Below are positions 40,645 through 46,169 of a stretch of DNA of 64,000 nt, in pieces. The position numbers were made by a program, and so were the translations under genes. Every line of letters begins with the position of its first letter. The first letter of the stretch is position 1. Origin of the DNA: Henriciella algicola. Its GTDB lineage: Bacteria > Pseudomonadota > Alphaproteobacteria > Caulobacterales > Hyphomonadaceae. The notes below the pieces were generated by a model. It did no database searches. It was not told the DNA's origin and worked only from the letters and a program-made list of their open reading frames with translations. The DNA is taken from positions 1,426,001 to 1,490,000 of the forward strand of contig NZ_QWGA01000003.1 of NCBI RefSeq assembly GCF_003576245.1, in the 5' to 3' direction.

Positions 40645-42474
40645 TCAGCCCCCGCGCTTCAGGGCGCGAAGAATGAGCCGCATCGGCGACACCGCCTCAA
40701 GGGCGGGCTCCGTCGCCGGGGCGGGTTCTTCAAGGATCTGACCGGCCAGTATCTCACCCGCCCAAGGGCCCCAGGTAAAGCCGCGCGATCCAAATCCACC
40801 CGCCATGAACAGGCCACCGACCAGCGGCGCGTCCGCTTCGATGGCCTGACCATGTTTCACCCCGTCGAAAATCTCTCGTGCAGCCGCCTCATCGGGCACC
40901 GCTCCGATCAGCGGCAGGCGGTCCGGCGTTGTCGCGCGTACCCCGGCGCGGCTCTGAAGCTCTGCAGCTTTCGCGGCCTGTCGCCAATATGGGTCCAGTT
41001 CTTCAAGGGCTGCCATATTCGTGGCCCGCGCGGCCTCAGATAGGTCCGGCCCGGTTCCGTCCCAAGCCTCAAACGTCGCGCCCCATAGACGGGTCTGGCC
41101 CAAAGCGAGGGCATAGTGGCCGCTTGCGATTGCTGAAGGCGGCGCGTCAACGGCGACGTCAGCAAACTCCACCTGACCAAGACGTCCGGTCAGCCCCAGC
41201 CACGGCAGCAGATCCTGCGCCCCCTGACCGGCAGCGATGATGGTCGGCACCTCCGGATTGAGGTCTGAGAGATGAAGCTTTTCGCCAAACCGGGTCTCGG
41301 CCCCTTCGAGAAGGTGCGCGATGAGCTTCTCCGGCTCCAGTATCAGCGCCTGTTTGTGAAGCTGGCCGCTTACTGCCGCCTCAAGGTTCTCAAGCCCCAG
41401 CGGCGGGTCAGCCAGTACTTTGGCAATCCGCGCTGCCTCCCGCTCATCTTTCGGGCGCTGCAGCACATTGGTTTCGGTAACGCCCGGCCGCCCGGCATAG
41501 AACTGGCGCGCACGAAGATAGGCGTCGATCAGCAGCCGCGCCTGAACCGTATCGCCCGCATCAAGCCGCGGCATGACCAGCGCCAGCGGGTTACCGCTTG
41601 CATGCTTCGCCGGGCCGCTCGCCGCGTCGATCATCTCGACCTCAAGGCCGCGATCAAGAAATGTCCGCGCCAGACACGCCCCGGCTATACCAGCCCCGAT
41701 GATCCGAACTCTGTTTGGGCGGTCATCAGGGGAGCGAAGGCCGTAGACATCCGGTGCGGGCTGGGGCGCTTCGTTGAGGCGCACTTCCAGCCGCTCCCGC
41801 TTGCGCCCGAAGCCTTCGACCTTGGCGACATCGAAGCCAGCGTCGGCAAGGCCGCGCCGCACGAAACCAGCCACCGTGAATGTACTGAGAGAAACACCGT
41901 CAGTGCACCGCTGCTGCACCATCGGCCAGAGGGATTTGTCCCACATTTGCGGATTCTTAGCCGGGGAAAATCCATCAAGAAACCACGCATCGGCGGCAAA
42001 GCGGGAGGCGGGCAAAGTCTCGCTGATGTCCCCGGTATGAAGCGTCAGCGTGACGCCCTCTTCCGGCCAGACGATCCGTTGGACACCCAGCGCCCGCTCT
42101 GGCCAGCGCTCGATCAACTTGTCTGACAATTCGCTGATCTCGGGCCATGCGGAAAGCGCGCGGGCGGCGTCCTCGCGGTCGAGTGGAAACCCTTCAAAGG
42201 AAATGAAGTGCAGCCACGCTTTCGGCGTCGGACGCGTCCCGCGCCAGAGCTGCCAGGTGCCGAGGAAATTAAGCCCCGTTCCAAAGCCAAGTTCGCCAAC
42301 GGTAAAGCTGCCTCTGCCCTTCCAGCGCTCTGGCAATCCGCAGCCTTTCAGGAAAACGAGGCGTGTTTCCTCCAGCCCGCTCTGACGGGAGAAATAGATA
42401 TCATCCACCCGCACATCCTGCGGCGTGCCATCATCTTTCCAGTCAAGTTCAGGGCGGGGCGGTAGTCGGCTCAT
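40645..42474 (-). CDS. mnmC: Bifunctional tRNA 5-methylaminomethyl-2-thiouridine synthesis protein
   Basis: MnmC converts cmnm5s2U34 to nm5s2U (FAD oxidase half) and then to mnm5s2U (SAM methyltransferase half). The 609-residue protein has the N-terminal methyltransferase (LGFGTGLNFLGTWQL, then WFLDGFSPAKNPQMW) and a C-terminal FAD domain with IIGAGIAGACLART near 257. The ATG at 42474 (MSRLPPRPELDWKDDGTPQ) matches the family start. It converges with the psp operon, seven bases apart. Confidence 0.95.
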   Translation of the reverse strand: MSRLPPRPELDWKDDGTPQDVRVDDIYFSRQSGLEETRLVFLKGCGLPERWKGRGSFTVGELGFGTGLNFLGTWQLWRGTRPTPKAWLHFISFEGFPLDREDAARALSAWPEISELSDKLIERWPERALGVQRIVWPEEGVTLTLHTGDISETLPASRFAADAWFLDGFSPAKNPQMWDKSLWPMVQQRCTDGVSLSTFTVAGFVRRGLADAGFDVAKVEGFGRKRERLEVRLNEAPQPAPDVYGLRSPDDRPNRVRIIGAGIAGACLARTFLDRGLEVEMIDAASGPAKHASGNPLALVMPRLDAGDTVQARLLIDAYLRARQFYAGRPGVTETNVLQRPKDEREAARIAKVLADPPLGLENLEAAVSGQLHKQALILEPEKLIAHLLEGAETRFGEKLHLSDLNPEVPTIIAAGQGAQDLLPWLGLTGRLGQVEFADVAVDAPPSAIASGHYALALGQTRLWGATFEAWDGTGPDLSEAARATNMAALEELDPYWRQAAKAAELQSRAGVRATTPDRLPLIGAVPDEAAAREIFDGVKHGQAIEADAPLVGGLFMAGGFGSRGFTWGPWAGEILAGQILEEPAPATEPALEAVSPMRLILRALKRGG

Positions 42475-42578
42475 TTGCGGCTCATCTAGCACGGGAATTT
42501 AATATTCCACCCCGGGAACGGCAGGGCCAGACCGCTTGTTATTCTGGTGATCTACACACGCAAAAGGAGAAACCTTCC

Positions 42579-42767
42579 ATGGGAAAAGATCAAGCTGAAG
42601 GCCTCGGCAAGAAAGTCGCTGGCAAGGCTAAGGAAATCGCTGGTGTCGCCACCGATAACCGCAAGCTCGAAGCCGAAGGCAAGGCGCAGCAGGTTGAAGG
42701 CAAGGGTCAGGAAATGGTCGGCAAGGCCAAGGACGCCCTGAAATCAGAAGAGAAAAAGAAAGCCTGA
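42579..42767 (+). CDS. CsbD-family stress protein
   Basis: A 62-residue, Lys/Gly/Ala/Glu-rich helical protein of the CsbD family, with KKVAGKAKEIAG and VEGKGQEMVGKAKDALK repeats. Family members are abundant general-stress proteins of unknown mechanism. AAAAGGAGA upstream of the ATG is a strong ribosome-binding site. Divergent from mnmC. Confidence 0.92.
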   Translation: MGKDQAEGLGKKVAGKAKEIAGVATDNRKLEAEGKAQQVEGKGQEMVGKAKDALKSEEKKKA

Positions 42768-42818: not shown

Positions 42819-44063
42819 ATGATTTCGCACCATGAGACCCCTGCAAGGCGCACAGGCCTTGAAAGATTGAATGAATTTGCGCCCCTCATGGGGACGCATT
42901 ACGGGCACCGTCGCAATATCGACCCGGGCGAAAATGCCCGCCCGAACGTTTCCCAGCTTTCCCCCTTCCTTCGCCACCGGCTGATCAGCGAGGAAGAGGT
43001 CGCCTCCGCGGCCCTCACGGTGCATGGCAGCGAACAGGCGACGAAATTCATTCAGGAAATTTGCTGGCGGACATATTTCAAAGGCTGGCTGGAGCATCAC
43101 CCGTCTGTCTGGTCGGATTATATTTCCGACCGTGATGCGCAATTTACTTCCCTCGAAAAGGATAAGGGCCTACGCGCCGATTATGAGGCCGCCATTGAAG
43201 GCCGCGCCGGCATCGAAGGCTTCGACCATTGGGCGAAAGAACTCACTGAGACCGGCTATCTCCATAATCACGCCCGCATGTCTTTCGCCTCTATCTGGCT
43301 CTTCACGCTGAAGCTGCCCTGGTCGCTCGGCGCAGACTTTTTCCTCCGCCATCTCCTCGACGGCGACCCTGCTTCCAACACGCTATCTTGGCGCTGGGTC
43401 GCCGGGCTGCACACGCTGGGAAAGACTTATCTCGCCAAGAAGGAAGCCATTGAGACCTGCAGCGATGGGAGGTTCGCGCCGGGCAATCTCGCCCAGAGCG
43501 CCCGTCAGGTTCCCGGGCCGGACAACCCCCAGCCGCAACAGCTTCCGCCCCGCGACATCCTGCCTGATGAAAGTTTTGCGCTTCTCCTCACCGAGGATGA
43601 TCTCAGCGTCGAAACATGGCTCAATGAGCATCTGGACATCGAGGCGATTGCCGGACTGCACAGCGCCGAGACCAGATGCGCCGCAGACGTTTCGGAGAAA
43701 GCCGTGTCTTTCACCAAAGGCGCGCTCAAAGATGGCCTAGCAAGGGCAGGCAGCCATTTCGGCATCGAGGCTCAAAACCTCTCAGATGACAGCGACAGGC
43801 AATCCGCACTGAAAGACTGGGCGAACAGCCTTGAGACGAGGCACATCGTCGTTCCCTACATCCCGGCCGGATGGACGCGGGATACGCTGTCGCCGGTCCT
43901 GTCAGGGCTTCAGGCAGACGGGTTTCACATCCACCAGATCCGGCGCGACTGGGATGAGTGTTTCTGGCCGCACGCCAGGAAGGGTTTCTTCAAATTGCGC
44001 AAGCAGATCCCATCTGTTCTGGACACGCTCGACATAGCAGAAGGTCTGAAACTCGATGGCTGA
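42819..44063 (+). CDS. Photolyase-type FAD-binding protein lacking the N-terminal antenna domain
   Basis: A 414-residue protein that opens directly with the FAD-binding helical domain of photolyases/cryptochromes: RNIDPGENARPNVSQLSPFLRHRL (about 32-55), FIQEICWRTYFKGWLE, TGYLHNHARMSFASIWLF and the flavin-contact DGDPASNTLSWRW. The N-terminal alpha/beta domain normally placed before it is absent; instead about 150 residues with alternating strands and helices follow it. Function (repair, light sensing or redox) is open. It overlaps by eight bases a GNAT gene. Confidence 0.8.
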   Translation: MISHHETPARRTGLERLNEFAPLMGTHYGHRRNIDPGENARPNVSQLSPFLRHRLISEEEVASAALTVHGSEQATKFIQEICWRTYFKGWLEHHPSVWSDYISDRDAQFTSLEKDKGLRADYEAAIEGRAGIEGFDHWAKELTETGYLHNHARMSFASIWLFTLKLPWSLGADFFLRHLLDGDPASNTLSWRWVAGLHTLGKTYLAKKEAIETCSDGRFAPGNLAQSARQVPGPDNPQPQQLPPRDILPDESFALLLTEDDLSVETWLNEHLDIEAIAGLHSAETRCAADVSEKAVSFTKGALKDGLARAGSHFGIEAQNLSDDSDRQSALKDWANSLETRHIVVPYIPAGWTRDTLSPVLSGLQADGFHIHQIRRDWDECFWPHARKGFFKLRKQIPSVLDTLDIAEGLKLDG

Positions 44064-44343
44064 TCCTGAAATCAAGCACTCAGAAAGCGATAGCGGCGGG
44101 GTCTTCCACACGACTATTGATGGCCACAAAGCTGAAATGACCTACTCAAAGGCTGGCACGACGGTCATGATCATTGATCATACGGGCGTGCCCGAAGCGC
44201 TCGGCGGTCAGGGCGTGGGTCTGAAGCTGGTCGAGGCCGGCATCGCCCTTGCGCGTGAGCGCGGACTGAAAATCATGCCGCTCTGCCCCTTCGCAAAGGC
44301 GCAGTTCGAGAAGCACCCGGAATGGAAGGATGTCCTTCGATGA
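44056..44343 (+). CDS. Mini-GNAT protein (YjdJ type), copy 1
   Basis: A 95-residue protein of the short YjdJ/Acetyltransf_CG family: TYSKAGTTVMIIDHTGVPEALGGQGVGLKLVEAGIALARERGLKIMPLCPFAKAQFEKHPEWKDVL. The GGQGVG segment is the CoA pyrophosphate loop. The gene overlaps the photolyase-like gene by eight bases and the second copy by four, so all are one translational unit. Confidence 0.88.
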   Translation: MADPEIKHSESDSGGVFHTTIDGHKAEMTYSKAGTTVMIIDHTGVPEALGGQGVGLKLVEAGIALARERGLKIMPLCPFAKAQFEKHPEWKDVLR

Positions 44344-44615
44344 GCGACCTCACACTTCAGGATGACGGCAAGCAACTGACAACGGATGTCGAAGGCCACG
44401 AACTTGTCATCCGCTATGGCTGGCAGGGCGATGACGTCATGCGGGTTGATTTTGTCGGCGTGCCATCAGCGCTCGGCGGACGCGGCCTCGGCACGAAGCT
44501 GGTCGGCAAGCTGGTTGAAAAAGCGCGCGCGGAGAATTTCAAGCTGGTGCCGGTCTGCGGTTTTGCCCGAACGCAGATCGACAGGCATCCGGACTGGAAG
44601 GATGTGCTCGCCTGA
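44340..44615 (+). CDS. Mini-GNAT protein (YjdJ type), copy 2
   Basis: A 91-residue paralogue of the preceding gene with GVPSALGGRGLGTKLVGKLVEKARAENFKLVPVCGFARTQIDRHPDWKDVL. Start ATG at 44340 overlaps the previous stop (ATGA). The two copies differ in about half of their residues, suggesting an old tandem duplication with different partners or heterodimer formation. Confidence 0.88.
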   Translation: MSDLTLQDDGKQLTTDVEGHELVIRYGWQGDDVMRVDFVGVPSALGGRGLGTKLVGKLVEKARAENFKLVPVCGFARTQIDRHPDWKDVLA

Positions 44616-44630
44616 TCCATTACGTCAGGT

Positions 44631-45083
44631 ATGAGCAAGCCATTCTGGGAAACCAAAAGACTGACAGAGATGACCCCGCAGGAGTGGGAGTCGCTTTGCG
44701 ATGGCTGCGCGAAATGCTGCCTCATCAAGCTTGAGGACGAAGATAGCGGCGACGTCGCCTATACGAGGCTGCACTGCAAACTCCTCGACGCTGATCTCTG
44801 CCGCTGCGCAGACTATGAGAACCGCAAGGCCAAGGTGCCGGACTGCGTGATCCTGACGCCGAAATCGGTGTCAGAGCTGAAATGGATGCCGAAAAGCTGT
44901 GCCTATCGCCGCGTGCATGAGGGACGCGGACTGGAAGACTGGCATCATCTCGTCTGCGGTGACCGTCAGCGCATCCATGAGGTCGGCAAATCGATCATGG
45001 GCCAGACGGTGAGTGAAGAGACGGTCTTCGAGGAAGACCAGATCGACTGGATCATCGACTGGGACGGCAATCCGCCGGACTGA
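44631..45083 (+). CDS. YcgN-family cysteine-cluster protein
   Basis: A 150-residue protein of the UPF0260/YcgN family. The cluster CDGCAKCC (about 22-29) with later cysteines in LHCKLLDADLCRCADYENRK and DCVILTP and the final SCAYRRVHEGRGLEDWHHLV match the family. The cysteines probably bind an iron-sulfur cluster or zinc; the function is unknown. It lies 15 bases downstream of the second GNAT. Confidence 0.92.
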   Translation: MSKPFWETKRLTEMTPQEWESLCDGCAKCCLIKLEDEDSGDVAYTRLHCKLLDADLCRCADYENRKAKVPDCVILTPKSVSELKWMPKSCAYRRVHEGRGLEDWHHLVCGDRQRIHEVGKSIMGQTVSEETVFEEDQIDWIIDWDGNPPD

Positions 45084-45119: not shown

Positions 45120-46169
45120 TTATGGCCCCTCGATCTCGTAACCCTTGTCACGCAGCAGGGTGATGACGCTGTCAGGCCCTGCAAGGTGGCCTGCACCAAC
45201 CGCGACGAAGACCGTGCCTTCGACATCATCGAGGAAGCCTTCGATCTGCGGCACCCAGTTCTCGTTCCGCTCAACAAAGAGGGCATCATAGATGCCGTCG
45301 CCGCCGCCCGTATCGGGGTTCGCCACGAGCATGCCCAGACCTTCGACATCGCCGTCACGCCACTCATCGACAACCTGATCGAGGGTGCGGCTGGTATCAC
45401 CCAGCGTGATGGAGGTCTCATAGAGGTAGGCGGCCTGCGTATCTTCCGGCAGTTCGTCAAAGATCGCGGCCTGATCGGCGGCGGTTTCAAGGAAGGCAAA
45501 TTCCTTACCGGCCGCTTCTGCATCGGCGATCAGGATCTGCTCAATGCCGGCATTCGGGTCAAACCCATCAGACTGAAGCTGTAGAACGGACAGGTTCACA
45601 GCCGCCATCCACGGCTCCATCGGGTCGAAAGCAGAGACGGGCAGGTTGAGGCCAGACAGCGCTTCTTCAAAAGCCGTGAGAACCGGGTCTGGCAGCTCAT
45701 TGCTGAGCGTGCGCCCATCCCCATAAAAACCGCGAGACAGGAAATCACGGGCGACGGCCTGCTGGCCTTCCTCACTCACCATGTCGAGCTCAAGGACAAG
45801 CAGGTCAGCCGAATTGAATTTCTCGGTGAACTCGTCGGTGCGCCAGTCGAGGTCCGGCCGCATCAGATGGACAGTGCCGAAGATGTGGACCGTCGTGTCC
45901 TCGTCGGACATGGTCCAGATTGCGGGTGAGCCGTCACCATTGGTGGCCTGCGCCTGCTCCAGCGCCGCATCAAACTCAGCCATCAGCTCATCGCGCGAGC
46001 GATATTCAGCAGAGCCCTCAGGGCTTGTGTCTTCAGCGCCCGTGCCGGTTTCGACGACGGCTGGTTCGTCGCTCATGGCGGCCTCATCGCTGCCAGACGG
46101 GCTACAGGCTGCGAGCGCGGCAAAGGCAATGGCGCTCAGGCCTGAAACGAAATGGAAGCTGCGGCTCAT
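45120..46169 (-). CDS. TraB/GumN-family lipoprotein
   Basis: A 349-residue protein with a lipoprotein signal peptide (LAAC, Cys about 22), a low-complexity acidic linker and the TraB/GumN (Tiki-like protease superfamily) domain: [18 protein letters not shown] (about 87-104), a central [19 protein letters not shown] region and [27 protein letters not shown] at the end, with the GTVH and GAGHL motifs that carry predicted metal ligands. AGGAGA upstream. Confidence 0.87.

Follow-up and report, generated by a model that had tools for sequence, protein, structure and literature searches.

A putative photolyase of Henriciella algicola with inverted domain order and a probable antenna-domain counterpart at its C-terminus

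Introduction

Photolyases whose two domains stand in the reverse of the usual order are already in print, as 'NewPHLs or SPLs' with an 'inverted domain topology' in the wording of PMC13274461, and also in PMC9426592; statements on published systems here and below follow excerpts of the papers cited. We have analysed a 64,000-nucleotide stretch of the genome of Henriciella algicola (contig NZ_QWGA01000003.1, positions 1,426,001 to 1,490,000; hereafter the window), in which an open reading frame (ORF) of 414 codons with an ATG start, at 42819..44063 on the + strand, is assigned to the NewPHL type of photolyase with inverted domain order on the basis of the ORF itself, Pfam, a predicted model and a tree. 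In NewPHL as described (Emmerich et al. 2020, NAR; via PMC9426592 and PMC13274461), the flavin adenine dinucleotide (FAD) domain comes first and a 'Z-domain' lies at the C-terminus, as in the window protein, and both have neither an N-terminal antenna domain nor iron-sulfur (Fe-S) cysteines; no difference between the two was found in a comparison made by description rather than letter by letter. The characterised NewPHLs, from Dinoroseobacter shibae and Methylobacterium mesophilicum, are said to repair cyclobutane pyrimidine dimers (CPDs), preferring single-stranded DNA (PMC9426592, PMC13274461).

Two further described groups bear on the comparison. SPLs (Xu et al. 2021, MBE; via PMC9649867, PMC9178010 and PMC9498864) are bacterial proteins with an FAD domain and without an N-terminal alpha/beta domain, like the window protein, and, as citing papers report, it has been proposed in print that photolyases and cryptochromes descend from short forms of this kind. 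In marine Synechococcus and Cyanobium, the Phr4/Phr5 pair and Phr6 have the order of FAD and photolyase domains reversed, again like the window protein, but Phr4 and Phr6 contain Fe-S cysteines, whereas the window protein is a single chain without them (PMC9426592); Phr7, according to the same paper, also has no Fe-S cysteine set. Among the literature matches listed, titles and abstract openings mention no permuted photolyases, and Emmerich et al. 2020 and Xu et al. 2021 may discuss them.

Results and Discussion

Most probably, the window protein is an inverted-topology photolyase of the NewPHL/SPL kind, derived by a circular permutation with its cut in the interdomain linker and active in light-driven repair, with which the acetyltransferase (GNAT) and YcgN genes downstream share no task. 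The FAD-binding helical domain, which is the C-terminal domain of photolyases, is placed first, at residues 1-230 (42819..43508, +; Pfam, VIA-align and conservation), and is followed by an interdomain linker that the model leaves devoid of regular secondary structure (residues 231-251; 43509..43571, +). Pfam FAD_binding_7 matches residues 77-200 (E 9.3e-22) and is the sole family above cut-off in the protein, which also matches photolyases of the PDB by sequence, down to E 1e-17; the canonical architecture of PF00875 followed by PF03441 is absent, there being no N-terminal DNA_photolyase domain. AlphaFold2 models the whole protein (72-row alignment) with a mean predicted local distance difference test score (pLDDT) of 95.1 and a predicted template modelling score (pTM) of 0.92, and residues 3-230 of this model align with residues 173-414 of the Thermus photolyase 1iqr (VIA-align; 208 residues, root-mean-square deviation (rmsd) 2.3, Z 15.6). 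As modelled, the FAD domain is complete within residues 3-230.

Conservation within this domain is strict at ten positions: E80, W83, N150, M154, W168, D181, D183, N187, W191 and W193 are invariant in all 72 rows of an alignment that comprises the window protein and 71 of the 99 non-window references, the remainder, mostly close copies or similar rows, having been removed by hand. The same ten residues pair with identical letters in alignments to PDB photolyases, and we take them to serve in FAD holding, dimer contact and electron transfer, as in class I photolyases. The genome also encodes a class I CPD photolyase (L001, on contig C1) that has the FAD fold and the active-site residues in common with the window protein, at 35% identity in the FAD domain, but the opposite domain order, as well as a PhrB-type relative (L003, on contig C2). 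The latter is a 6-4 photolyase-like protein without the cysteine cluster that is present in the PhrB of another locus (L014).

Behind the FAD domain, AlphaFold2 predicts with high confidence a five-stranded alpha/beta domain at residues 252-403 (43572..44027, +), which the model, VIA-align and profile comparisons mark as the probable equivalent of the antenna domain at the N-terminus of photolyases, known in the literature as the 'Z-domain'. Residues 244-409, folded in isolation, reach a pLDDT of 93.0, and photolyases or cryptochromes fill all nine top VIA-align rows for this isolated domain, with Z 9.9-8.6. Eight of these rows are confined to chain residues 1-167, and the ninth, 6k8k_B, covers residues 4-297 at rmsd 7.1. 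Both 8a1h and 7ykn align with Z 9.9 over 121-122 residues, and residues 2-167 of PhrB (4dja) pair with domain residues 9-166 (Z 9.2, 150 residues). Among the 50 VIA-align rows listed, 21 extend to the C-terminal helices, beyond domain residue 150, and all 21 are photolyases or cryptochromes, the reach being judged from the first and last aligned residues only; a family absent from the list of rows is not thereby excluded as a structural match. Profile comparison points the same way: a local hhalign run against 45 photolyase N-domains (of 55 matches, 10 partial ones being excluded) gives a score of 30.0 over 85 columns with E 3.4e-4, hhalign E-values here and below applying to single comparisons, and this score was reached by none of 100 column shuffles (best 22.0), the reversed alignment scoring 13.9.

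Residues 2-167 and 194-464 of PhrB (4dja) are both covered by the window protein with their order swapped, which argues for a circular permutation whose cut lies between the domains, in the linker; on the predicted model and the sequence profiles, a swap of the two photolyase domains is a well-supported reading. The initial annotation had described a photolyase FAD domain at the start with an alpha/beta region behind it, had guessed at a circular permutation and had named structure prediction as a check, and on these points it is borne out, by the Pfam match and the high-confidence model for the former, and for the latter by the VIA-align rows, which liken the C-terminal domain to photolyase N-terminal domains, by the shuffled profiles and by the match of a whole FAD domain to the rest of the model. 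The inverted architecture, however, had already been published as NewPHL/SPL.

A canonical photolyase antenna domain has a helix between strands 1 and 2; in the model of the window protein this first helix is reduced to a three-residue turn, so that it is doubtful whether the protein holds a conventional antenna pigment. An Fe-S cluster was considered for the window protein and rejected, as no set of four conserved cysteines exists across the 72 rows. Residue 134 (43218-43220) is G in the window protein and C in 41 of the 72 relatives, and the cysteine at this position apparently matches the first of the four cysteines in the 4-Cys forms described below; going by the alignment, it may be left over from an Fe-S site.

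Relatives of the protein are numerous in species genomes, with at least 586 stretches at tblastn E <= 1e-3, some of them perhaps ordinary photolyases; the best 80, used here, all match the window protein over almost its full length. A second form came from 246 genomes sampled from the phylum of a Frigoribacterium (Actinomycetota), 81 of which gave matches. Of 16 stretches taken, 14, selected from these 81 genomes for short frames or partial matches and not at random, are 4-Cys forms, with four conserved cysteines in 14/14, a C-terminal domain and, in none of the 14, a photolyase N-domain match ahead of the FAD domain; the other two stretches, both from a different genome (G121), are ordinary photolyases. 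We take the 14 to be of the SPL kind; they differ from the window protein in their four cysteines, and they bear an alpha/beta domain C-terminally whereas SPLs are described as being without one. A third, split form is found in two genomes of the order to which the window belongs (L104 and L105), as an FAD ORF of 274 or 288 residues followed by an alpha/beta ORF of 154 or 136. The two pairs (L104, 938-2223, -; L105, 1285-2558, +) have ORFs that overlap by 4 nt and recall Phr4/Phr5 of Synechococcus, which likewise occupies two ORFs (PMC9426592).

The C-terminal domains of the 14 4-Cys and two split forms match photolyase N-domains with E 1.8e-6 over 93 columns and a probability of 90%, a score reached by none of 100 shuffles. 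The two 4-Cys domains that were scanned match Pfam DNA_photolyase at E 0.002 and 0.039, both below the family cut-off, and Pfam recognises neither alpha/beta ORF of the split forms. Tree 1, of FAD domains (78 rows), was built from the 24 of 25 hand-picked NewPHL loci that passed the length filter, 22 class I enzymes, their number being capped, 16 DASH-like enzymes (our label for full-length PF00875 + PF03441 photolyases), 14 4-Cys forms and two split forms, with PhrB-type enzymes absent; a branch supported at 100/99.6 divides the NewPHL, 4-Cys and split forms from the class I and DASH-like enzymes. An Erythrobacter relative (L066) falls within the same clade as the window protein, and an Erythrobacter NewPHL is listed in PMC13274461. 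Tree 2 (57 rows) combines subsets of tree 1 with 13 PhrB-type enzymes, and its bootstrap is unsettled. Chances are about even that a single circular permutation, which put the antenna domain after the FAD domain, gave rise to all three forms (NewPHL, 4-Cys and split), perhaps via a split FAD-then-alpha/beta pair that was later fused; on the sequence comparisons, a single event for the inverted forms is plausible and not proved.

Several results weigh against the permutation, the common origin or the class assignment. Foldseek ranks a universal stress protein first for the isolated domain (E 0.011; no match falls below 1e-3), and in VIA-align the same protein reaches Z 8.6, no more than 1.3 short of the top photolyase, so that fold alone is not decisive for the identity of the domain. 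The hhalign probability for the window-type domain against photolyase N-domains is 38% in local mode, and the same comparison in global mode gives E 0.0029 and a probability of 4%; compared directly with the 4-Cys/split domains, the window-type domain gives E 0.015 and 3%. Pfam and NCBIfam scans assign no family to the window C-terminal domain, and among the 72 aligned members Pfam DNA_photolyase is matched by one (E 0.0039) and an unrelated phosphatase-like family by five (best 0.0069). Both trees drew a long-branch warning, and the best topology of tree 2 separates the inverted forms, one clade not being rejected (p-AU 0.47). Membership in the class, finally, is deduced from domain architecture and clade rather than by comparing the protein directly with the characterised enzymes of D. 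shibae and M. mesophilicum.

The universal stress protein scores in Foldseek and VIA-align, together with the weak profile match to the 4-Cys/split domains, speak for a C-terminal domain that is unrelated to photolyases, like a universal stress protein or an ATP-pyrophosphatase, and for a new fusion with no permutation. We consider such a fusion unlikely, although it is the best of the alternatives: past domain residue 150 only photolyases and cryptochromes align, the shuffled profiles leave the signal against photolyase N-domains unmatched, and the 4-Cys and split forms match those N-domains more clearly. A photolyase with swapped domains remains the preferred reading.

For such a photolyase, the conserved residues suggest ordinary light-driven CPD splitting as the likely reaction. 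Blue or UV-A light would excite FADH-, which would donate an electron to a CPD flipped into the pocket of the FAD domain; the dimer would split and the electron go back, with the C-terminal domain packing as a lid or antenna-like lobe. By analogy with the two characterised NewPHLs, the dimers it acts on are probably those of single-stranded DNA. Family, domain order, predicted fold, conserved residues and the dissociable gene order come directly from the analysis; that the protein binds FAD, depends on light, repairs CPDs and prefers single-stranded DNA, and that its gene is co-transcribed with those downstream, we infer.

Slightly less probable than the fusion is a cryptochrome-like light receptor in place of a repair enzyme. 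Receptors can retain repair residues, and in two relatives on plasmids of Ruegeria and Peteryoungia (L201, L202), in which the NewPHL gene adjoins an AarF/UbiB kinase gene, response-regulator genes lie within a few kb. Against a receptor stand the residues that we assign to the dimer pocket and electron transfer, invariant as they are in 72/72 rows, the CPD repair ascribed to characterised members of the class, and the recurrence of photolyase genes as neighbours. Among the 80 loci, surveyed with flanks of about 6 kb or less, 16 have another photolyase gene nearby (12 a DASH-like, 10 a PhrB-type and 1 a class I gene), and the window locus has none. Four loci (L027, L039, L052 and L076) have a DASH-like, a NewPHL and a PhrB-type gene one after another on the same strand, separated by about 140-240 bp as measured from match edges. 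A recurrent non-photolyase neighbour was sought by clustering and rejected, since any one such family comes within 400 bp of NewPHL in 6 of the 80 loci at most; an amine-oxidoreductase-like gene is found in the flanks of 8/80.

Downstream of the photolyase gene, and as the initial annotation had it, lie two mini-GNATs and a YcgN protein at exactly the spacing it gave, an 8-nt overlap, a 4-nt overlap and then a 15-nt gap. Mini-GNAT 1 (44056..44343, +; 95 aa) and mini-GNAT 2 (44340..44615, +; 91 aa, counted from the ATG at 44340, a longer mechanical frame opening at 44322) both belong to Acetyltransf_CG (Pfam E 2.4e-27 and 8.3e-19) and are tandem paralogues with 43% identity, and the YcgN-family cysteine-cluster protein (44631..45083, +; 150 aa) is identified by Pfam CxxCxxCC (2.9e-10) and NCBIfam YcgN (8.4e-66); we list mini-GNAT 1 and YcgN as neighbours, the membership of the former in a unit being unsupported. 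On the upstream side are a gene for a CsbD-like small protein (42579..42767, +; Pfam) and, divergently, a gene with methyltransferase and FAD-dependent oxidoreductase domains (40645..42492, -; Pfam), a domain pair from which we presume the name mnmC; a convergent TraB/PrgY/GumN-family gene (45120..46169, -; Pfam and neighbour search) closes the locus downstream. A sequence scan of the locus gives 0 promoter-like sites against 0.6 expected and 3 terminator-like sites against 2.7 expected.

The initial annotation had proposed that the photolyase, the two mini-GNATs and YcgN form one functional unit that links the sensing of light or flavin with acetylation and the handling of metals. The exact ORF overlaps favour such a unit, as does the order NewPHL-GNAT-GNAT-ycgN, which 8 of the 29 genomes surveyed within the genus, with flanks of about 1.5 kb or less, retain (G000, G002, G004, G011, G013, G016, G017 and G020). 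In six others (G008, G009, G018, G019, G021 and G025), however, GNAT-GNAT-ycgN occurs without NewPHL, with csbD beside the mnmC-like gene and the first GNAT directly after csbD in 6/6, and seven (G001, G003, G006, G007, G014, G023 and G027) have NewPHL without an adjoining GNAT or ycgN; the remaining eight have neither a NewPHL match nor the tandem GNAT pair. Across six mnmC-csbD-GNAT-GNAT-ycgN loci (L203-L208), the site at which the photolyase is present or absent lies between csbD and the first GNAT. NewPHL still adjoins the mnmC-like gene in G023, G027 and L020. In L020, L093 and L094 the NewPHL gene is divergent from the mnmC-like gene, and csbD, the GNATs and ycgN were not found beside it, so that mnmC and NewPHL can be neighbours independently of the GNAT pair.

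Among the 80 loci, a mini-GNAT lies near NewPHL in 6 and ycgN in 3, the hosts being Henriciella, Ponticaulis or a further member of the Hyphomonadaceae. Beyond the genus, the loci examined contain only the pair of NewPHL and one mini-GNAT, in Ponticaulis-type loci (L007-L009 and L092), a further point in favour of a unit; in L007, from Ponticaulis, about 40 bp separate NewPHL from the mini-GNAT behind it while the rest of the neighbourhood differs, which suggests that this pair is somewhat older than the genus. The four-gene order was not found outside one genus in the loci examined, contrary to what conservation beyond close relatives would have looked like, and the more recurrent company of NewPHL is other photolyases rather than GNATs or YcgN. 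Since GNAT-GNAT-ycgN and NewPHL occur apart within the genus, the local cluster is dissociable, we reject the four-gene functional unit as very improbable, and the GNAT and YcgN genes are probably bystanders that are co-transcribed with the photolyase gene but have no task in common with it.

An ordinary photolyase with a miscalled start, the usual cause of a missing N-terminus and an error that the initial annotation had allowed for, is refuted by an in-frame stop 17 codons upstream of the ATG (the stop-to-stop frame is 431 aa), by the csbD and mnmC-like genes that occupy the upstream region, and by 101 full-length references (counting the window itself twice and some genomes twice) whose matches start at window residue 1-12. 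For these reasons the N-terminal antenna domain is truly missing from the front of the inverted photolyase.

Conclusion

Together, these results place an apparently new protein in a widespread and already described class of repair enzymes. To that class they add fold and profile evidence for a counterpart of the antenna domain, a domain order common to the 4-Cys and split forms, and a local gene cluster that is dissociable. The position of the 'missing' domain at the C-terminus of the forms examined here and the possible grouping of split and fused forms bear on the proposal that short forms are ancestral: if the inverted forms do go back to one permutation, 'short photolyases lacking alpha/beta domain' would not be primitive one-domain ancestors, because the domain would sit at the other end.

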